From Candidatus Poribacteria bacterium (GTDB taxonomy: Bacteria > Poribacteria > WGA-4E > WGA-3G), in NCBI GenBank assembly GCA_009841255.1, contig VXMD01000083.1, positions 1-64,000 of the forward strand: 64,000 nucleotides of DNA. Reading direction: 5' to 3'. Shown one piece after another: positions 8,464 to 40,170 of this stretch. The notes beneath the pieces are model-generated. The model was not told where the DNA came from. It made no database searches and worked only from the letters and a program-made list of their open reading frames with translations. Every line of letters starts with the position of its first letter. Position 1 is the first letter of the stretch. The position numbers were made by a program, and so were the translations under genes.

Positions 8464-8486
8464 CATAAACTAACAACTTATGCTAC
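8464..8486 (-). repeat. REP-like palindrome with GTAG head
   Basis: CATAAACT-AAC-AACTTATG followed by CTAC (8483-8486). Same subfamily as 17765-17787, 51007-51029 and 52264-52286, which keep the AAC loop. Confidence 0.6.
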
Positions 8487-8494
8487 AAGTAAAA

Positions 8495-9364
8495 CTACTC
8501 TGTTCCGTTAGCGTTGTCCACCACGTGGCGATCACGGAATAGCGTCCGTCGAAGTGGGGGCATTTCAGCGAGGAGTTTCGGATGGGGTTGGTAAACCTTC
8601 GCGAAACCGCTGTCGACAGGACTATACAGGTTAAAAACGGCGAGCCTGTCGTTTTCAGTATTTGTCCACTCCGTTGCGCTGTGGGTGAGCGCTTCTGTGA
8701 AAAAGAGCAGTGAACCTCCCGGACAACCGTAAGTTGCCCAAATATCGGAATCAGGATCTTGGATATCAGGCGGTGCCGTGTAAACCGATTTGTGGCTACC
8801 GGTTACTAACAGGGTTCCCCCCTGTCCCTTCTTCACCTCGTTCAATTCCCACACAATACGCGTGTGCGGACTGTAGCCTTTGCCGGGAAATGCGTTGTAG
8901 TAGTGGACATCGCCGGGGAAACGGAGTAAGCCGTTGCCGTTGTGCGGTCCGAACCGTCCCATGCCAGGCGCACGAAAAAAAAGACTCGCACTCTCAACGG
9001 AGAAACCGTAGCACTCTGGACTCGTTACAGCTGGATGCGCCGTGAATTCGTTGAGCAGTGAAACAACAAGCGGATGGTCGATGAGTTTCTGAAGCGGACC
9101 CCCGACGGGACTCCGTTCATGTTCTGGAATGGATTCCGGGTCGTGGTGTAGGCGGTAGCCGAAATCGCGCATCTCTTTGAGTTCTGATCCGGTAAATACC
9201 TCCGGTACCAGAAACCAACCGTGCGTATCAAACGCATACCGCTGTTCAGGCGTCAACTCAGGAATAGCTAAACCGTCGGCATTTCGGGTCGGGAATTCGC
9301 ATGTATCTGGTGGCAATAATGCACCGATCCACGGTTGTTGATTCTTGTCTGTCTGTTTTTCCAT
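8495..9364 (-). CDS. phytanoyl-CoA dioxygenase (PhyH) family protein with HxG motif
   Basis: PhyH-type Fe(II)/2-oxoglutarate oxygenase of 289 residues. Aligned on WHQDNGLWR of the paralogue at 35166, the expected HxD is PHNGNGLLR, i.e. H141-N-G143. The distal His is probably H228 (ALTHSATEW), with R240 placed to bind 2-oxoglutarate. HxG instead of HxD is the change known from Fe/2OG halogenases such as BesD and WelO5, so chemistry may be other than hydroxylation. PGDVH after the motif could offer another ligand. The start abuts leader repeat copy 4. It pairs with the similar protein upstream. Confidence 0.85.
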   Translation of the reverse strand: MEKQTDKNQQPWIGALLPPDTCEFPTRNADGLAIPELTPEQRYAFDTHGWFLVPEVFTGSELKEMRDFGYRLHHDPESIPEHERSPVGGPLQKLIDHPLVVSLLNEFTAHPAVTSPECYGFSVESASLFFRAPGMGRFGPHNGNGLLRFPGDVHYYNAFPGKGYSPHTRIVWELNEVKKGQGGTLLVTGSHKSVYTAPPDIQDPDSDIWATYGCPGGSLLFFTEALTHSATEWTNTENDRLAVFNLYSPVDSGFAKVYQPHPKLLAEMPPLRRTLFRDRHVVDNANGTE

Positions 9365-9476
9365 TTTTTAATGTTTCCTTGCGGTTCGGTCAGGTCGGTA
9401 TAGATATGAACGTTCCTTGCCGTATATCTAGGGGAAACGCCCAAGCAAAAACCCCTCCGCTACGCTTACGGGCTAC
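9365..9476 (+). repeat. interspersed leader repeat, copy 4
   Basis: TTTTTAATGTTTCCTTGCGG then TTCGGTCAGGT, touching the start codon at 9364. The far end GGGCTAC (9470-9476) carries the CTAC tail but a weaker hairpin. Confidence 0.6.
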
Positions 9477-9485
9477 AGGTTTGGT

Positions 9486-10406
9486 TTAAACGTCGGCGGG
9501 ATAGGCAGATGTCCGCTGGTTAAAATCTCCATTCACGACGTTGCCGCCTGCATAAGTCTCTCGGAAAAGCGTCTGTCGTTTGGACGGCATTGCTTCAATG
9601 AACTGCGGATGCGGAAGCCAATTTGACCAACGACTCGCCACCGTATTGTACAAATTCGAGATAGAGACCCGCTCAGCACCACTGACTGGAACCTGCGTCT
9701 GCGTCATAGATTCCGTGAGGAGCAAGAGAGAACCGGGCGGGCATTCATAGGTCTCCCACAACGGTGAATCCGGATTTTGCGAGACGTCTGGTATTGGATA
9801 CGCGGCTTTGTGGCTTCCCGTAATAAACCGCATATTATTTGTTTCAGCAGTGACTTCGGTGAGTTCCCATATCGCGCGTGTTAGCCCGCTCCAGCCGCGT
9901 CCTGGCACGCACCGATAAAGATGAGAATCCCCCGGTAAACGAAATAACCCGTTTCCTTTGTGAAGTCCTGACTGGATATCAGAAGGAGTTGCGGTGTTCC
10001 CGATGGACACCGATGTCTCCTCCAGTCGGAATCCATAGCAATCCTCACTTGCAGCGGGTGGATATGCCAAAAATTCATTCAGAAATCCAACGATGATCGG
10101 ATGGTCAGCGAGTTTCTGAAGTGGACCGCCGAGTGCACAACGTTCTGGTTCCGGTATACTTTCCGGTGTCTCCTGTAGCCCCTGACAGAATTCACGCATT
10201 CCTGCGATGTCAGTGTCCGATAAAACACTTGGAATCAGGAGCCAACCGTTGCGGTCAAAATCATATTTCTGCTTCTGGGTTGGAACAACAACGGGTAGCC
10301 CCTCAGCATTGGTTCGTGTGAGTTCTTCGGGTTCGACTTCAACGGCACTGCCTAAGTTTTTATTAACAATAAAAGGTTTTCTCGTTGCGAGTTCTTTGTA
10401 AGCCAT
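9486..10406 (-). CDS. PhyH-like protein lacking metal ligands (probable pseudoenzyme)
   Basis: A 306-residue paralogue of the neighbour at 8495, alignable over most of its length (shared GGPLQKL.DHP, ITGSHK/VTGSHK and PGSLL). The HxD site reads LHKGNGLFR (H149-K-G151) and the position of the distal His is Gln (SMTQTQVPV, Q236), so at most one of the three usual iron ligands remains. I start it at ATG 10406 (MAYKEL), which has AAGGAAG about 7 nt upstream, rather than the ATG at 10427. It may be a regulatory or binding partner of the 8495 protein; that is inference. Confidence 0.75.
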   Translation of the reverse strand: MAYKELATRKPFIVNKNLGSAVEVEPEELTRTNAEGLPVVVPTQKQKYDFDRNGWLLIPSVLSDTDIAGMREFCQGLQETPESIPEPERCALGGPLQKLADHPIIVGFLNEFLAYPPAASEDCYGFRLEETSVSIGNTATPSDIQSGLHKGNGLFRLPGDSHLYRCVPGRGWSGLTRAIWELTEVTAETNNMRFITGSHKAAYPIPDVSQNPDSPLWETYECPPGSLLLLTESMTQTQVPVSGAERVSISNLYNTVASRWSNWLPHPQFIEAMPSKRQTLFRETYAGGNVVNGDFNQRTSAYPADV

Positions 10407-10492
10407 CACGGTACTTCCTTTTAACATGCATCTGAAACTGAATTTTACAGTCCCGAGATGCAGGTGTTAGGTTTTGTAATCTCGATCCGGAT

Positions 10493-11104
10493 TTACGAAC
10501 GGTTCTGTGTTTCTAACATGCGGAACATGTGGCGCGCATAACTCATCGTTGAGATAAATACGAACACCAGCGCGAGACAAAGACCGTAAAATTCAATATT
10601 CGTCGGTAAGCGTGGCACTATGGGACGGAGCAGATAAAGCAGTATAACAATTGACAAAAAGAAACTCGTACATTTTCCCCATAAATTAGAACGGGTAATC
10701 ATTTTCGCCTTATATGCCAAGACAGCATTGCCGAGTACGATTAAGGTATCCCGCACAACAATCACCAGAAATGCCCATACCGGAAACCTAGCATGGAATA
10801 TAGCGAGCGCAAAGATTCCCGCGGAGAGGGCGAGTTTATCTGCAACTGGGTCCAAAATATAACCGAGTTGAGTGTGCTGCTTCAAACGTCGTGCAAAGAA
10901 CCCATCTAACAGATCCGTAATAACGGCGACAGCACCACAAGCGATAGCGACGCCCCACTGGGCACGGTAAATGAAGTAAAAGATAAATGGAACCGTGAGG
11001 AGTCGAAAAGTCGATAAGATATTACTAACATAGAAGAAATCCCGACGTGTAATCTGGATCAACCGGGTTTCGGTAAATTGATGGATGGGAGCCTTTAGTG
11101 CCAT
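10493..11104 (-). CDS. pgsA: CDP-alcohol phosphatidyltransferase (PgsA-like)
   Basis: Membrane enzyme of 203 residues carrying the full CDP-alcohol phosphotransferase motif: D64-x2-D67-G-x2-A-R-x8-G81-x3-D85-x3-D89. Length and single-domain layout fit phosphatidylglycerophosphate synthase, which makes PG-phosphate from CDP-diacylglycerol and glycerol-3-phosphate. Hydrophobic segments near 32-48, 50-64, 95-125 and 150-190. A cardiolipin synthase or other head-group specificity cannot be excluded, so the symbol is provisional. It follows the Lon-N gene with a 94-nt gap. Confidence 0.85.
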   Translation of the reverse strand: MALKAPIHQFTETRLIQITRRDFFYVSNILSTFRLLTVPFIFYFIYRAQWGVAIACGAVAVITDLLDGFFARRLKQHTQLGYILDPVADKLALSAGIFALAIFHARFPVWAFLVIVVRDTLIVLGNAVLAYKAKMITRSNLWGKCTSFFLSIVILLYLLRPIVPRLPTNIEFYGLCLALVFVFISTMSYARHMFRMLETQNRS

Positions 11105-11198
11105 TATGTTATCGCGTGATGGATAGGATTTTGTGCTGTAGGCGTGAGCATCTCAATATGGGATCTTGCCAACTTCGCCCGACACGATTGCGACATTC

Positions 11199-11867
11199 TC
11201 AATTGTTTTGGGCTGCCAGTTGAAAAGCGATTCGCCGATTCTGATCGGTCAGAATCTCGATTTCGCGTGTGAGGAGCTGTTCTAAGGGAATTGTCTCCAA
11301 CAAGATTTGTTTTTCTTCAAGCGGAATTCGTAACCGTATGCCGACTTGGTAGGCAAGTTCCCTTGGATCATCGGGTTGTTCTTCAGGTGGACTCCAAGCG
11401 AAAATTAAGCGACTGGACAATTTCTCGTACGCTTTATACAATTCTTCAGCTTGTGTTGTGAGTAATTCCGATACTGATTCAATTTCTGTATCCAAGTCAT
11501 CTAACATCCGAACCCGTCCTGTAAGATAGGAGAGATGCTCCTGAACCTCCAGAATCTGAAAGCGATACGCGCCAGCTGTGATAATATTCATGCGACCGTC
11601 ATCTAAATGTTCAACTTGAAGGATACGGGCGGCTGTGCCAATTTCATAAGGCGTTGCGGCTTCGCCTACTTCTTCTCCGTCTTTGATAAGCACAACCCCA
11701 AACTCAGACTGATGTTCCAAGCAGAATTTAACCATTGTTCGGTAACGCGGTTCAAAGATGTGTAGCGGTAAAAAGCCGCCCGGGAATAAAACTGTCTGTA
11801 ACGGAAAGAGTGGAATTTGTCGTTCATCAGACATTTGACTTTTCGATGAGAGTGGGTCACTCTGCAT
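11199..11867 (-). CDS. LON peptidase substrate-binding (Lon-N) domain protein
   Basis: About 222 residues, matching the stand-alone N-terminal domain of Lon. The opening IPLFPLQTVLFPGGFLPLHI, then FEPRYR and a FGVVL strand, is the family hallmark; a helical region follows to the C terminus. No ATPase or protease domain is present. I start it at ATG 11867 because AAGAGGAG lies 8-9 nt before it; an earlier ATG at 11903 has no such site. Stand-alone Lon-N proteins are thought to bind unfolded or damaged proteins, but the role is uncertain. Confidence 0.85.
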   Translation of the reverse strand: MQSDPLSSKSQMSDERQIPLFPLQTVLFPGGFLPLHIFEPRYRTMVKFCLEHQSEFGVVLIKDGEEVGEAATPYEIGTAARILQVEHLDDGRMNIITAGAYRFQILEVQEHLSYLTGRVRMLDDLDTEIESVSELLTTQAEELYKAYEKLSSRLIFAWSPPEEQPDDPRELAYQVGIRLRIPLEEKQILLETIPLEQLLTREIEILTDQNRRIAFQLAAQNN

Positions 11868-12144
11868 GTGAAAACTCCTCTTTACACGATGTTCAATGTA
11901 CAAGATGGATTTTACTTTCAGGTATCACTTTCTTTATATTTTTGCACAAAATATCCGATTCGTCAATAGTTTTTTTCTGCAGCGACGAATCACTGAGATA
12001 TCTTGACACTTAGTGGATTTTCCGCTATAATTCTTTTAAGCAATCTTATCACCGCTTAAGTCGTAAATTAGCGAATTTAATTTAAAATAGATATTTGTGC
12101 ATGCTCCGTGTAGGCAACGGATATCAAAACGATTGGAGAAAGTC

Positions 12145-12630
12145 GTGAATTCAGAAAAATTGGGAAACGCTTTAGCAAAATCCAAAGACATCGCTATCAC
12201 GCTTTTAGGGAGCCTGCTGTATCGGACACGTGTTGAAGGGATCCGCGATGCAGACGGAATCAAGGGTATGAAAGCCCGTTGGATAGGCGATCCAGGGAAA
12301 AACGCGATGGAGATTAACACATCCACTGGGAGTACGGACCTCAAAATAGACGGCAATACAGCACCGACTATTGAATACGTCCAAGAAGGTGAGAAACGGA
12401 CAATCGCCATCAGAAATATTAAGAACCTCTCATGCGAACTTGACCGAGAGACGCTGGACCAGATCGCCACCCCAAGAGGCGCGGGTATCGCGATGTGCGT
12501 TGGGGCGGGAGTCGGGCTACTCGGTTGGTTCCTGATTTCAGCGATCCGTGCTCTGCCTACACCCCGAACAGAACAGGACGATTCTGCAGCAATTCCTCCG
12601 AGTGTCACTACTGAAGGTCGCGGGGAATAA
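12145..12630 (+). CDS. hypothetical protein with one C-terminal membrane segment
   Basis: I do not recognise this 161-residue protein. It has a soluble, charged N-terminal region of about 110 residues and one hydrophobic segment near residues 118-137 (IAMCVGAGVGLLGWFLISAI), then a short acidic, proline-rich tail. A GTG start at 12145 is proposed because GGAGAAAG lies just upstream; an ATG at 12097 is possible. It ends 3 nt before the enolase-superfamily gene, which suggests co-transcription. Confidence 0.5.
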   Translation: MNSEKLGNALAKSKDIAITLLGSLLYRTRVEGIRDADGIKGMKARWIGDPGKNAMEINTSTGSTDLKIDGNTAPTIEYVQEGEKRTIAIRNIKNLSCELDRETLDQIATPRGAGIAMCVGAGVGLLGWFLISAIRALPTPRTEQDDSAAIPPSVTTEGRGE

Positions 12631-12633
12631 GAA

Positions 12634-13827
12634 ATGAAAATCACCGCTGTCGATCCCTTTTATTTGCGGATGCCGGACATCACAACCGCAGCAGATGGTA
12701 CACAAGACACACTTTTAGTACGCATCCAAACGGATACGGGCCTCGAAGGATGGGGTGAATGCGACGCCTCGCCGTTAGTCAGTCTCGCCGTTTATTGCTG
12801 TCCGATGTCGCACGGAAATATCATCAACATTCGCACTTCACTCGTTGGTGAAACGCTTGAGGGTCCCAATGATGTACTCCGACTGAGTGAAAAGACCCTC
12901 CGAAATGGATTGGACATTCAACAGATACAGCACGCTTATAGCGGTGCTGAAATCGCGCTGTGGGACGTTATTGGGCAGCACTTAAACACACCCATCTACC
13001 GTCTCCTCGCCGAGATGTCAGGGACATCTGACATAGCACATCCTAAGCTGCCGTATGCATCCGTCCTTTTTGGTGATACCGCCGAAGCGACCCACCACAT
13101 AGCGACGAGGTTACGCGAACAGGGGTATCGCGCGGCGAAGTTCGGTTGGGGACCGATGGGAAAATTCGGTGAGGCAAATGACATCGCACTTGTGCGTGCA
13201 GCGCGTGAAGGCATGGGACCAGACGCACAGATTATGATTGATGCCGGCGTTGTTTGGGGGAGCGATCATGAAACGGCGTACCAGCGTGCTGAGGCCTTCT
13301 CGCAATTTTCGCCAACATGGCTGGAGGAACCGCTTGCTCCCGATGCAATCAATGCCTACGGTGCGCTAACGCGTCGGAATCCGTCGGTTCGTATTGCGGG
13401 AGGTGAAGGATCGAATACCTATCGGATGGCAGAAGATATCATCGTACACGGTGGGGTTCAGTTCGTGCAGATTGACACGGGACGTATCGGTGGGATTCTG
13501 CCTTCTTTTCAGGTCCGTCAACTCGCGGAACGGCACGGTATCCAGTATGTCAACCACACGTTCAAAAGTCACCTGAGTCTTGCCGCCTCACTCCACGTCT
13601 TCGCGACGAACCCTGATTTCAATCTATTAGAATATCCAGCAGCGGGATCGGAATTGTCGCAGCGGTTAGTCACGGAACCGTTTCATGTTGAATCCGATGG
13701 AATGGTTCGGATAAAAGAATTGCCCGGACTCGGTGTGAGTGTAGATACGGAAGCGATTCGCCCGTATTTAGCACCCGTGAGAATTGAAGTCGGAACGGAT
13801 GTCGTCTTTGAACAGGGTAGTTTGTAG
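12634..13827 (+). CDS. mandelate racemase/muconate lactonizing enzyme family protein
   Basis: Enolase-superfamily enzyme of 397 residues: N-terminal capping domain (about 1-130) and a barrel. Candidate Mg ligands are D203 (MIDAG), E231/E232 (LEEP) and E258 (AGGEG). K169 (AAKFGW) and H308 (VNHTF) are in place to act as general acid/base, a layout closer to the mandelate-racemase/sugar-acid dehydratase branch than to muconate lactonising enzymes. It probably dehydrates or epimerises a sugar acid. The gene follows 12145-12630 after 3 nt and ends just before a REP-like palindrome. Confidence 0.88.
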   Translation: MKITAVDPFYLRMPDITTAADGTQDTLLVRIQTDTGLEGWGECDASPLVSLAVYCCPMSHGNIINIRTSLVGETLEGPNDVLRLSEKTLRNGLDIQQIQHAYSGAEIALWDVIGQHLNTPIYRLLAEMSGTSDIAHPKLPYASVLFGDTAEATHHIATRLREQGYRAAKFGWGPMGKFGEANDIALVRAAREGMGPDAQIMIDAGVVWGSDHETAYQRAEAFSQFSPTWLEEPLAPDAINAYGALTRRNPSVRIAGGEGSNTYRMAEDIIVHGGVQFVQIDTGRIGGILPSFQVRQLAERHGIQYVNHTFKSHLSLAASLHVFATNPDFNLLEYPAAGSELSQRLVTEPFHVESDGMVRIKELPGLGVSVDTEAIRPYLAPVRIEVGTDVVFEQGSL

Positions 13828-13845
13828 ACAGGTTGAAAAAAGATC

Positions 13846-13870
13846 GGGCGGGCACAAGACCCGCCCCTAC
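13846..13870 (-). repeat. REP-like palindrome with GTAG head
   Basis: GGGCGGG, loop CACAAGA, CCCGCCC, then CTAC (13867-13870). It sits between two convergent genes and could also act as a terminator hairpin. Confidence 0.7.
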
Positions 13871-13904
13871 ACGTAAACCGTATGGCACAGCATATAGTAC
13901 AATT

Positions 13905-16469
13905 CTATTTCAAAATCAACATCTTACGCGTAGCAGTGAAATCGCCTGCCGTTAATGTATAGAAATATACGCCACTCGCCACTGACTCACCCACCGTATT
14001 CCTGCCATCCCAATACGCCGCACGGTTACGAGATTCATAAATACCCACAAGTTGATAGCCTAATGCCAATGTCCGAACTAACTGTCCATCTGTGGAATAG
14101 ATAGAGATACTGACCTCAGAAGACCCTGCCAATTGATAGGGAATCCACGTTTCTGGGTTGAACGGATTCGGATAGTTGGCAAGCAATACAGTCCTTTGTG
14201 GAGTCAATGTTCTCAACAGTCGTTCCAGTACCGTAATCCCTCGCGCATAGGAAAAGCGATCCGGCATTGAAGTTGGGATCGTGCGTGACGCTTCTCGCTT
14301 GGCAAGCCTCAGCCATTGTTCCACCTGTGTTGTTGACAATGCGTGTGCCGAAGGTGCTCCGGCGATATTCTCGAAAGCATTTCCAATCAAGATGAGATCT
14401 TGAACATTAACAACGCCATCCCTGTTTAGGTCAGCACTATTCTCGCCAGTCTCTCCGAAAGCTGCTGCGATCAAGACTATATCTTGAATATTGACGACAC
14501 CATCTCCATTAACATCGGCAAGGACTTCCGCTATCCCTGTCAACATCGGGAATTTCCACAGGAGAACCGTTCCATCGAAACTCCCACTTGCGATTGTGCT
14601 ACCATCAGGACTGACTGCAACGCTTGTGATCGAATATGTATGACCTTCAAGTATTTCGAGTTGTTCCGCTGTGCCAATGTCCCACAAGCGGATCGTCGCG
14701 TCATAACTTCCACTTACAAGTATCGCGCCATCTGGACTGAAAACAATGCTGGTAGCATTTGCGGGATTCTCTGCCGGTGCATCACCCTCCGATGCTTCCG
14801 GATCTTCAACGATTGTTTCAGGGTCAATAGGTTTGACAAAGGTTTGCTGACGCTCAGCCGTGGTAACATTCCAGAGCGACACCGTGTCGCCACCGCCACT
14901 GGCGAGGGTCTTGCCATCCGGACTAAACGCAACTGTCCAGACATCATCTTCGTGTTCGGTGATGGTGTGGAGGACTTCATGTGTTTCGACATCCCACAAA
15001 CGAATGGTATTGTCCCGGCTACCGCTGGCAAGCATCTTACTATCCGGACTAAACGCCAAAGTTTCCACCCCTGCCTCGTGTTCCCATAGGGTTTCTATGT
15101 GCGCTCCCGTGGTTGCATCCCATAAGCGGATGCTATCGTCCTCGCTACCGCTGGCGAGGATACTTCCATCTGGACTGAACGCAAGACTGATGAGGTAGGA
15201 ATAGTGTCCCCTGAGCGTCTTAATGTGTTCACCCGTGACAGCATCCCATAAACGGACGGTATCGTCTTGGCTGCCACTAGCGAGTGTGCGTCCATCGGGA
15301 CCGAACACAACGACGTCGACATCATCTTGGTGTCCGATAAGCGTATGGCGCAACTGACCTGTGGTTGCATCCCACAAGCGAATGGTTTTGTCCCAACTCC
15401 GTGTGGCGAGGGTAGTGCCATCGGCACTGAAAGTAACGCTTGCGACAGCATCTGTGTGTCCTGTAATAGTTTTCAGATGTGCCCCTGTAGCAGGGTCCCA
15501 TGAGCGGATTGAAGCATCCCAAGCACCGCTGGTGAGCATACTTCCATCAGGGGTAAAAGTGACTGCATAAACATCAGCAGTGTGATCGGTCAAGGTTATG
15601 AGGTGTGTCCCGGTGTTTGCATCCCATAAACGGACGGTATCATCTTCACCCGCACTCGCGAGGCGGCTCCCATCAGGACTATAGGTAAGGTCATAGATAT
15701 GAGATGTATGTCCAACCAAGGTTTGTGTGACCGTCCACGTGGTAGTGTCCCAGAGGTGGATAATTGCGTTCAAATCCCCACTAGCGAGTGTCCTTCCATC
15801 TGGGCTGAGCGCGATGCTGGCGACATTATCTCGATGCTCTTCAAGCGTCTGCTTCAACTCACCCGTGGCGACATCCCATATACGAATGGTATCGTCTCGA
15901 CTGCCACTGATGAGCGTCTCACCGTTAGAACTGAAAACGAGGCTGTTAACGCCTTCTGTGTGACCTTCAAGTGTGTTCAAGAGCTCGCCTGTTTCGAGAT
16001 TCCATATACGAATGGTACCGTCTCTGCTGCCACTGGCGAGCGTCGTCCCATTAGGACTGAAAACAATGGTGCGGACACTCCTTTCATGTCCCTCAAGAGA
16101 ATGTAGTACTTCACCTGTTTCAGGATCCCATAAGCGGACGATCCCATCGAAACTTCCACCGGCAAGCATGCTCCCATCAGGGGAATATGCGAGTGCCGAG
16201 ACACTATATCCATATCCAGTAAAAAGTGCGAGTTCTTCATCGGTTGCTGTATCATAGATCCAAACACCAATGGAGCCTGCGGCAGCAAGCCGTGTGCCAT
16301 CCGGCGAATATCGAATTTCATAGAGCCACCCTTTGCCGAGGCGCGCCGTGGCACCTTCGGGCAGATGCCATTGTGGTGAATCTTGGGCAAAACTGTTGTA
16401 AGAGAAAAAGAGGGTCGTCACACAGATGACAGTTAATATAAATAATATAAAAAAAAACGTGACTTTCAT
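13905..16469 (-). CDS. secreted WD40 protein with dockerin-like repeats and FlgD/T9SS-like C-terminus
   Basis: Protein of 854 residues with an N-terminal signal peptide (MKVTFFFILFILTVICV onward, cleavage near SFAQ). I count 14 WD40 repeats ending in variants of IRLWD, enough for two seven-bladed propellers. Two dockerin-type calcium motifs follow (DVNGDGVVNIQD and DLNRDGVVNVQD). The last ~90 residues hold NYPNPFNPETWIPY and the closing SGVYFYTLTAGDF..TRKMLILK, a FlgD-like fold typical of type IX sorting domains. ATG 16469 is preferred over 16508 because AAAGGAGT precedes it. The PorV-like gene lies immediately upstream, which fits a type IX-like export link. Confidence 0.9.
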   Translation of the reverse strand: MKVTFFFILFILTVICVTTLFFSYNSFAQDSPQWHLPEGATARLGKGWLYEIRYSPDGTRLAAAGSIGVWIYDTATDEELALFTGYGYSVSALAYSPDGSMLAGGSFDGIVRLWDPETGEVLHSLEGHERSVRTIVFSPNGTTLASGSRDGTIRIWNLETGELLNTLEGHTEGVNSLVFSSNGETLISGSRDDTIRIWDVATGELKQTLEEHRDNVASIALSPDGRTLASGDLNAIIHLWDTTTWTVTQTLVGHTSHIYDLTYSPDGSRLASAGEDDTVRLWDANTGTHLITLTDHTADVYAVTFTPDGSMLTSGAWDASIRSWDPATGAHLKTITGHTDAVASVTFSADGTTLATRSWDKTIRLWDATTGQLRHTLIGHQDDVDVVVFGPDGRTLASGSQDDTVRLWDAVTGEHIKTLRGHYSYLISLAFSPDGSILASGSEDDSIRLWDATTGAHIETLWEHEAGVETLAFSPDSKMLASGSRDNTIRLWDVETHEVLHTITEHEDDVWTVAFSPDGKTLASGGGDTVSLWNVTTAERQQTFVKPIDPETIVEDPEASEGDAPAENPANATSIVFSPDGAILVSGSYDATIRLWDIGTAEQLEILEGHTYSITSVAVSPDGSTIASGSFDGTVLLWKFPMLTGIAEVLADVNGDGVVNIQDIVLIAAAFGETGENSADLNRDGVVNVQDLILIGNAFENIAGAPSAHALSTTQVEQWLRLAKREASRTIPTSMPDRFSYARGITVLERLLRTLTPQRTVLLANYPNPFNPETWIPYQLAGSSEVSISIYSTDGQLVRTLALGYQLVGIYESRNRAAYWDGRNTVGESVASGVYFYTLTAGDFTATRKMLILK

Positions 16470-33201: not shown

Positions 33202-33831
33202 CTAAAATTTCTTCAATTGTGCAAGTATTGGCTCAGGACCAACGCGCTTACCACTCTTGACATCGAGATATTTCCACGCGATGTTACCATCCTGATTAAC
33301 AATATAGGTCGTTGGGCGTGCCACCTCGACTTCACTTGGGTCAATGACATTATAAGCAGCAATCGTCTTGGTATTTTCATCCGAGAGCAAGAGATAGGTG
33401 GCTTGAAGCATCTGCTGCGTTGAATTAACAGTTGCTATCGGATCAGCACTGATAGCGATCAGTTCGGCACCTTCGGCTTGAATGTCTTCATACCCCTCCT
33501 GCAACTCACCGAGTTGCGCTCGACAGTCGGCTCATGTGCCGGTGCGGTAGAAAACAATAACGAGTTTCTGCCCGCGATACTCCGAAAGACTATGGAATTC
33601 CCCATCACCATCTGGAAGCGAGAAATCGGGTGCGAGTGCGCCGAGGTCCAATCCTTCACCCATAGGGAGTTTTTTCGCTGCGTCCTCTGGCGCTGTTACA
33701 ACATGGGTTGTCCGCTCTGCGTTGCCACAAGCAGAAAAGCAAAAAATAATATAAGCGCACAGAATTGAGAAAGGCACTAAATCAGCCTTCCTCGAAAATG
33801 GCAATTTCAGGTTTACAATCCAATTGTTCAT
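33202..33831 (-). CDS. selenocysteine-containing peroxiredoxin-like (AhpC/TSA) lipoprotein
   Basis: Read through one TGA (33534-33532) the frame encodes 209 residues. The N terminus is a lipoprotein signal (CFSAC, C35). The thioredoxin-like fold runs APDFSLPDGDG, LVIVFYRTGT-U100-ADC103-RAQL, then AISADP, FPL-type strands and PTTYIVNQDG. Relatives have FYRG.WCPYC.QL, so TGA replaces the first Cys of CxxC, as expected of selenocysteine. A hairpin GCAACTC-GGT-GAGTTGC begins 14 nt after TGA. ATG 33831 overlaps the sulfatase stop (TGATG), so translation is coupled. Probably reduces peroxides in the periplasm. selA, selB, selC and selD are not in the window. Confidence 0.85.
33501..33517 (-). promoter_or_regulatory. 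candidate bacterial SECIS hairpin
   Basis: Perfect 7-bp stem with a 3-nt apical loop (GGU in the mRNA), starting 14 nt after the UGA; the first loop G lies 22 nt from it, inside the known bacterial window. The two HMA genes have hairpins of the same layout. Confidence 0.7.
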
Positions 33832-39149: not shown

Positions 39150-39548
39150 ATGTATATCGTAAGATTATCGCTTGTTTGTCTTATTGCTTTCGTATTCATG
39201 GTAGGCTGTGGTCTGATTGGGAAGGAAGCAGAGATGTCTGAATCCGCGACCGGCACCACGGAAAAAGCCGCAATGAAAACGGATAGCGACATGGCAATGA
39301 AGACGGATGGCGACATGATGGAAGCCGCCGTTGAAGAGATCACACTAAACGTCACAGGTATGACATGAGGCGCGTGTACCAGCAAGGTGCAGGCTGCACT
39401 CAGTAAAGTCGCCGGTGTCTCTGAAGTGGTGAGTGTCTCTGACGCGGATAACACAGCTGTGGTGAAGGTTAAGAAAGGTAAAGTTAAGACTGCCGATCTC
39501 ACCACCGCAGTTCAAGGTGCTGGCTTCAGTGCCGAAGTCGCTCAATAA
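39150..39548 (+). CDS. selenocysteine-containing heavy-metal-associated (HMA/MerP-like) lipoprotein 1
   Basis: 132 residues when TGA at 39366-39368 is read as selenocysteine. Lipobox FMVGC near residue 20, a Met/Asp-rich linker (two DMAMKTDGDM-like repeats), then an HMA fold: ITLNVTGMT-U73-GAC76-TSKVQAALSKV, VSEVVSVS, AVVKVKKGKV and a final AVQGAGFSAEV. The HMA consensus is GMTCxxC, so U replaces the first metal-binding Cys. A hairpin GTGCA-GGC-TGCAC begins 18 nt after TGA. AAGGAGG precedes ATG by 7 nt. A UxxC pair may bind metal or act as a thiol-selenol redox centre outside the cytoplasm. Confidence 0.85.
39387..39399 (+). promoter_or_regulatory. candidate bacterial SECIS hairpin
   Basis: GTGCA-GGC-TGCAC, 5-bp perfect stem, loop GG at 24-25 nt after the UGA. 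Confidence 0.6.
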
Positions 39549-39560
39549 GGCTGAATCGGA

Positions 39561-39590
39561 GGGGTGGGGTTACCCACCCTTTCTTTTTTT
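39561..39590 (+). terminator. rho-independent terminator
   Basis: GGGTGGG-GTTA-CCCACCC followed by TTTCTTTTTTT, 13 nt after the stop of the first HMA gene. Confidence 0.8.
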
Positions 39591-39712
39591 AGGAACAGGT
39601 TGCAAACCACAACTCTCTTGCAGCCTTAACTCGAATAAAGTTTCAACCATCAGTGCTGAAGTTGAAGAGGCGCGATCGAGAGATCGCCCGTATCCATAAG
39701 GGGATTAAACTT

Positions 39713-40057
39713 ATGCGTCAGTTAAACGTGAGAATGCTGTTCGTCTGCTTTGCGGCACTGCTGTTTGTGTTCGCGTGTGCAGACACCTCAAAGAAAGAGG
39801 CAGAAGAAGCAGCACCCGCACAAACGGCAGAGGCAACAGTCGAAGAAGTGACACTGACTGTGACAGGCATGACGTGAGGCGCGTGTACCAGCAAGGTGCA
39901 GGATGCACTTACAAAACTTACCGGTGTGACTGAAGTTGTCAGTGTTTCTATGGAAGAGAATAAAGCTGTGGTGAAAGTTGAGAAAGACAAGGTTGAGAAC
40001 GACGCGCTCGTGAAGGCGGTTACAGACGCAGGTTTCAGCGCGCAAGTCGCTAACTAA
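39713..40057 (+). CDS. selenocysteine-containing heavy-metal-associated (HMA/MerP-like) lipoprotein 2
   Basis: 114 residues with TGA 39875-39877 read as selenocysteine. A hydrophobic start ending FVFAC (C near 22) suggests a lipoprotein; an Ala/Glu-rich linker leads to VTLTVTGMT-U55-GAC58-TSKVQDALTKL, VTEVVSVS, AVVKVEKDKV and DAGFSAQVAN. It is a tandem duplicate of the gene at 39150 and is nearly identical over the UGACTSKVQ stretch. Hairpin GTGCA-GGA-TGCAC lies at the same distance from TGA, stem kept while the loop changed. AAGGGG precedes ATG 39713. It has its own terminator at 40070. Confidence 0.85.
39896..39908 (+). promoter_or_regulatory. candidate bacterial SECIS hairpin
   Basis: GTGCA-GGA-TGCAC, beginning 18 nt after the UGA, matching the one in the upstream paralogue except for the third loop base. 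Confidence 0.6.
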
Positions 40058-40069
40058 ACCTGAGTTGAC

Positions 40070-40094
40070 AGGGCGAGATTAACTCGCCCTTTAC
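40070..40094 (+). terminator. rho-independent terminator
   Basis: AGGGCGAG-ATTAA-CTCGCCCT then TTACC; 12 nt after the second HMA gene. Confidence 0.65.
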
Positions 40095-40134: not shown

Positions 40135-40170
40135 AATGCGAGGTTTTTACGCCTCGCATTTTCTATTTTT
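40135..40170. terminator. bidirectional terminator between convergent genes
   Basis: AATGCGAGG, 8-nt loop, CCTCGCATT, followed by TTCTATTTTTT. It lies between the HMA gene (+) and the PhyH gene (-). Confidence 0.65.

Follow-up and report, generated by a model that had tools for sequence, protein, structure and literature searches.

A family of probable exported selenoproteins with a Sec-x-x-Cys HMA domain in Candidatus Poribacteria

Introduction

In a genome of the sponge-associated Candidatus Poribacteria (5.73 Mb, 96% complete), two adjacent genes for HMA-domain proteins are each interrupted by an in-frame TGA at a cysteine position of the metal-binding motif. This locus, which lies in a 64,000-nucleotide stretch of DNA that we analysed as a whole (hereafter the window), raises the question of whether these codons are read as selenocysteine (Sec) and, if so, what a Sec would do in such a domain. 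That Sec is predicted in HMA-type proteins is already known: a Sec ‘Mercuric transport protein MerP’ was predicted from two Global Ocean Sampling reads (PMC2398784), and the UxxU family, a UxxC ATPase and a MerT-type selenoprotein were also predicted earlier (PMC13188914). Known selenoproteins are mostly thought to be redox enzymes, whereas here Sec recurs throughout most of a phylum in what appears to be a domain dedicated to metal binding. Its place among the ligands never changes and, among the proteins examined, it occurs only in those with export signals. None of the papers that we searched links Poribacteria with selenoproteins, and an earlier description elsewhere is possible; within that literature and to our knowledge, the phylum-wide exported UxxC family, the covariation of its SECIS hairpin, the poly-HMA proteins with three or four Sec and the cytochrome/WD40 fusion are new.

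Results

A tandem pair of HMA genes with one in-frame TGA each

The pair and its associated elements are located in the window as follows.

39150..39548, + strand: putative HMA selenoprotein gene 1, 132 aa; signal/lipobox FMVGC followed by an HMA domain carrying GMT-U-GAC
39366..39368, + strand: in-frame TGA of gene 1 (predicted Sec, U73), first Cys position of GMTCxxC
39387..39399, + strand: SECIS-type hairpin of gene 1, GTGCA-GGC-TGCAC, 21 nt from the first base of the TGA
39558..39583, + strand: terminator-like hairpin of gene 1, then T-run
39713..40057, + strand: putative HMA selenoprotein gene 2, 114 aa; lipobox-like VFAC followed by an HMA domain carrying GMT-U-GAC
39875..39877, + strand: in-frame TGA of gene 2 (predicted Sec, U55), first Cys position of GMTCxxC
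39896..39908, + strand: SECIS-type hairpin of gene 2, GTGCA-GGA-TGCAC
40071..40089, + strand: weak hairpin 3′ of gene 2, GGGCGAG..CTCGCCC, tail TTTACC
40135-40160, + strand: better terminator-like site further past gene 2

A first-pass annotation of the window had described two neighbouring paralogues with one TGA each at the first Cys of GMTCxxC, and both genes and both TGAs proved real. The two proteins share 57% identity, an RBS-like sequence lies upstream of each gene, and both N-termini are hydrophobic and close with a lipobox-like Cys. The tandem paralogy, the HMA fold and the export proposed in that annotation are supported. Each gene had also been assigned its own terminator, which is clear for gene 1 only; gene 2 is followed first by the weak hairpin and further on by the terminator-like site at 40135-40160.

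Sec machinery and genetic code

The full Sec machinery was found in the source genome, in agreement with a selenoprotein reading of the pair. The tRNA-Sec, whose absence had been named as one thing that would refute that reading, scored above the Rfam cut-off with anticodon UCA, selB adjoins it, and selA (595.8 bits) and selD (361 bits) were also present, the latter with a TGA of its own inside the gene. TGA closes 4 of the 29 long open reading frames of the window, which rules out reassignment of this stop codon.

In a separate observation, an exact repeat of ~3.3 kb was found at 8466-15561 of locus L054 (G000:C50), where two lepB genes are present twice. The repeat is the result of a recent duplication in tandem or else of misassembly, and a chimeric frame arising from it (12325-13701) joins a SelB N-terminus to a LepA C-terminus.

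Sec and Cys alternate at one position across the phylum

Searches that read through stop codons recovered a homologue of the pair in 81 of 85 Poribacteria genomes, with a TGA-containing HMA gene in at least 72 (counted from the listed rows). In all Sec domains found, the TGA stood at the first Cys position of the metal motif, as opposed to the non-Cys contexts against which the annotation had cautioned, and its recurrence in dozens of assemblies made independently, some of them closed chromosomes, answers the concern that reads might show TGC. Codon changes 3′ of the TGA were more often synonymous (8-15) than non-synonymous (2-10) among orthologues. The alternation of Cys and Sec anticipated for homologues was recovered on a domain tree, where seven switches are needed and at least four are forced by supported branches, although the alignment behind the tree was short, which leaves its details uncertain. 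The canonical HMA genes that these genomes also carry (~745-aa frames and CopZ-size genes) retain Cys. Three genomes of order-level relatives carry UxxxC in place of UxxC through a one-residue insertion in the metal loop (L193, L196 and L165). No relatives were found on viral contigs or plasmids, and the Sec-HMA genes are therefore not a mobile-element family. Thiobacillus relatives were set aside as ordinary Cys HMA proteins that lack the hairpin.

A short hairpin is coupled to the TGA

Both genes of the pair carry the same stem (GTGCA/TGCAC) at the same spacing around a three-base loop that changes from GGC to GGA, exactly as first annotated. Because the two stems are identical and only the loops differ, the hairpins do not covary within the pair, contrary to what had been claimed, and the covariation expected among homologues was found at two base pairs, in distant relatives only. 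The fifth pair changes from A-U to G-C in 6 of the 59 diverse sequences, one of them a Latescibacterota homologue (e.g. GTGCG-GTC-CGCAC, where Gln is changed to Arg), with G-U also seen, while the third changes from G-C to A-U in L175 (GTACA-GTC-TGTAC), with a G-U intermediate in L071. The covariation score exceeded 500 of 500 shuffles and every slid version of the alignment.

The hairpin is also fixed in position. Its stem begins 21 nt past the first base of the TGA in 57 of the 59 diverse Sec domains, and the remaining two (L193 and L165), both with the UxxxC insertion, have it at 24 nt, a shift of 3 nt. The loop starts 24 nt after the TGA and its first base is G in 59/59, the layout of a SECIS-type element, in which a hairpin lies close 3′ of the TGA with a G opening the apical loop. 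All five stem pairs can form in 129 of 140 distinct Sec domains versus 1 of 50 Cys homologues (Fisher P = 1.9e-33, which treats domains as independent and ignores phylogenetic kinship), and the single Cys homologue with a full stem has a loop without G. Codon usage follows the same pattern: the hairpin Val codon is GTG in 136/137 domains compared to 19% of Val codons in the window’s long genes and 3/107 for a control Val located seven codons further along these genes, and the hairpin Ala codon is GCA in 135/135 compared to 31% in the window’s genes. Genes with several HMA domains (poly-HMA) served as internal controls, since the hairpin persists in their Sec domains and is disrupted in the Cys domains that the same gene encodes.

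When the two window sequences were folded thermodynamically on their own, a longer alternative stem was favoured, and folding energy was therefore not used as evidence; it is comparison among relatives that singles out the hairpin. An Rfam scan of the window gave no match, so no library SECIS model applies.

The steps through UGA decoding are strongly supported by sequence comparison, and we infer Sec insertion itself: UGA would be read as selenocysteine by SelB and tRNA-Sec, guided by a short hairpin of 5-6 bp with a three-base loop that opens with G and a stem 21 nt past the first base of the UGA.

In a Cys form of the WD40-HMA fusion described below (L188, G015:C404), five stem pairs are formable around a loop (AAC) without G, which is possibly a relic or a precursor of the SECIS hairpin.

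Fold and predicted export

Each protein matches PF00403 over a single HMA domain (37.7 and 45.7 bits, cut-off 24.8). An AlphaFold2 model has the HMA topology (E43-51, H58-67, E72-79, E84-90, H96-105, E109-113) with U55 in the metal loop, and its matches in the PDB are HMA domains, the top one being MerP (1osd, TM 0.92). The HMA signature is kept, namely G, M, the second Cys and the helix Val/Ala/Leu. The products would be exported and probably lipid-anchored, with a beta-alpha-beta-beta-alpha-beta fold in which Sec-x-x-Cys replaces Cys-x-x-Cys in an exposed loop.

Poly-HMA genes, fusions and a Latescibacterota homologue

The HMA domain is amplified at one locus into poly-HMA proteins of four to five domains, three or four of them with Sec, followed by one or two terminal Cys domains (L057, L058, L059, L060 and L061). 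In four of these five loci the poly-HMA gene occupies the syntenic place of the pair, between a GIY-YIG gene and PhyH/glycosyltransferase/prs genes, which suggests that the locus expanded as domains were duplicated and fused. Genome G076 has a tandem pair and a poly-HMA gene side by side. Two of the poly-HMA genomes, G029 and G028, are assembled in just two and four contigs, which argues against assembly error as the source of these genes. Prokaryotic selenoproteins have at most two to three Sec according to a 2026 review (PMC13188914). Poly-HMA genes have up to four UGAs to be read in one bacterial message and would serve as a naturally occurring model of processive UGA recoding, with the terminal Cys domains as a built-in control.

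The module also occurs in a 532-aa fusion (L055:6745-8343) that combines a signal peptide, a PSCyt1 cytochrome c domain, WD40 repeats and a C-terminal HMA domain with Sec. Relatives of this fusion exist in Sec or Cys versions, and in 3 of 13 loci the gene upstream encodes a ZnuA-type lipoprotein.

Beyond Poribacteria, a Latescibacterota MAG (L126) encodes in a row ArsR/SmtB, MerT-HMA(CAAC)-HMA(UGGC) and a CopZ-type 2Fe-2S chaperone, and its hairpin is the same as in Poribacteria, in the G-C form. Such a homologue was not found in 15 other Latescibacterota genomes, and the gene may have been acquired horizontally. Although a single case, this gene context is the strongest functional indication of a role with soft metals.

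Relation to known families

The pair scored below the cut-offs of the MerP, NF041115, NF045683 and CopZ models. It resembles MerP (TIGR02052; 1osd, 1afi), an exported single HMA domain with GMTCxxC, at 40-42% identity and model TM of 0.86-0.92, but has Sec for the first Cys, lipobox-like N-termini and no MerT or MerA partners. Likeness to the Sec-MerP of the Global Ocean Sampling reads is by description and not by sequence, since the published table is without motif or organism, and no pair, poly-HMA protein or fusion was described there (PMC2398784). NF041115 (UxxU_metal_bind), or putative mercuric reductase family (PMC13188914), is likewise HMA-like with Sec at the metal site, but has UxxU with two Sec per domain, whereas the Poribacteria family has UxxC; the pair reached 46.1 and 59.7 bits (cut-off 95) and none of the 85 genomes had a match above cut-off. 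Sec also occurs in heavy-metal transport in the MerT/CopZ fusion-like selenoprotein NF045683 (33.6 and 47.5 bits, cut-off 375) and the cation ATPase ABB15669, which shares UxxC, but these are membrane transporters, whereas the pair is predicted to be soluble and exported. CopZ chaperones are normally cytoplasmic Cys proteins. They resemble the pair in the HMA fold and in a metal site of CxxC type, and scores remained below cut-off for NF047957 (54.5 and 58.9, cut-off 85) and NF033795.

Proposed function and alternatives

Taken as a whole, we consider it probable that the pair are true selenoproteins, exported and probably lipid-anchored HMA proteins with a Sec-x-x-Cys soft-metal site outside the cytoplasm. 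We infer metal binding because of the HMA fold (MerP 1osd), retention of the second Cys and the gene neighbourhood of L126. Their likeliest job would be to retain Cu(I), Ag(I), Hg(II) or similar soft ions outside the cytoplasm, where the selenol would confer higher affinity and keep the site reactive at neutral pH. The proteins would buffer or trap metal rather than feed MerT, because these genomes lack a mer importer partner. A bolder reading, which we put forward only tentatively, is that an exported metal buffer based on selenium, a ‘selenothionein’, evolved in Poribacteria from Sec-HMA modules first duplicated as tandem genes and later fused into single chains with up to four Sec-Cys sites, each decoded by its own SECIS hairpin. 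The module has also been joined to a cytochrome c/WD40 protein. The domains are small and soluble and natural Sec/Cys pairs exist, making Sec as a natural metal ligand directly testable.

The strongest alternative, although we regard it as rather unlikely, is that the proteins are selenol redox proteins, in which UxxC cycles between selenol-thiol and selenenylsulfide states to reduce extracytoplasmic peroxides or disulfides, ancestral metal binding having been lost. It is retained because UxxC is a common redox motif, the usual one of selenoproteins, most known families of which are thought to be redox-active (PMC13188914), because a Cys homologue in Brocadiaceae (L121) adjoins thioredoxin-reductase-like, thioredoxin and DsbD-like genes (read by eye), and because one protein joins Sec-HMA to cytochrome c (PSCyt1) and WD40 parts. 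The partner alongside which such proteins might act, with the same low probability, is an exported seleno-peroxiredoxin encoded close to the pair:

33202..33831, − strand: lipoprotein-like peroxiredoxin; TGA 33534-33532; hairpin GCAACTC-GGT-GAGTTGC

This gene lies ~5.3 kb from the pair on the opposite strand and within 6 kb in 20 of 31 related loci, and its hairpin has the layout of those in the HMA genes with a 7-bp stem and the loop GGT. The first-pass annotation had tied it to the pair as one selenium system. The peroxiredoxin is indeed nearby, TGA-containing and lipoprotein-like, but a functional link does not follow from closeness amid strong synteny of unrelated genes. The flanking genes are housekeeping or unrelated, and the conserved neighbourhood was rejected as a clue to function. 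No metal-handling operon or mer genes were found among the neighbours of the Poribacteria pair, and the lack of such an operon counts against the soft-metal reading. Evidence against a redox role comes from the modelled fold, which is that of HMA and not thioredoxin, from the retained HMA signature, from the ArsR-MerT-CopZ gene set around the L126 homologue, and from UxxxC in the order-level relatives, which would be unusual for a redox pair.

A soft-metal site is also preferred over a role in holding or delivering selenium, akin to selenoprotein P. While the three to four Sec of poly-HMA proteins would suit such Sec-rich exported carriers, the final one or two domains are Cys in every poly-HMA gene, Sec always lies within a preserved metal-site motif and most genomes have single-Sec copies, making this improbable.

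Still less credible is mercury-specific uptake as MerP-type components of a mer resistance system. MerP is the top structural match and the MerP model TIGR02052 matches the proteins, but at 43.2 and 52.1 bits, well under its curated cut-off of 92.55. MerT was detected in no genome with Sec-HMA, although two genomes without Sec-HMA have it, MerA exceeded its cut-off in 0/85 Poribacteria genomes, and mer genes are absent near the pair. The absence of MerT and MerA largely refutes this reading, and membership in a mer operon was rejected; the label ‘MerP-like’ given at first holds for fold and sequence and fails for membership. HMA genes of 539-566 aa were initially taken for MerA, and the case examined, in G076, proved to be an HMA domain with a Gly/Asn-rich protein.

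That the TGAs are plain stops, leaving truncated short lipoproteins or pseudogenes, is hardly tenable, since decay is seen in some copies (an additional TAG in G012, a deleted motif in G061) but frame and amino acids 3′ of the TGA are conserved phylum-wide, alongside hairpin covariation, Cys alternation and full Sec machinery.

Atypical and degenerate copies

A few homologues depart from the family pattern. In G061 (L219, 1500-1810), an in-frame deletion has removed the entire GMTUGAC motif from the gene-2 orthologue, which retains the hairpin sequence and the remaining frame. A Sec-HMA copy in G012 (C129:18766; L179, L220) has a TAG within the hairpin (CAG to TAG), reflecting either a decaying copy or a sequencing error. 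In L097, L098 and L099 (6249-6747), a third lipoprotein with a homologous N-terminus adjoins the pair, with GMTRFTST and the metal motif lost. Finally, two neighbouring Cys-type HMA domains in G076:C28 (L224, 2601-5150) are placed N-terminally on unrelated lipoprotein-like proteins, one of which has a very long Gly/Asn/Asp-rich stretch.
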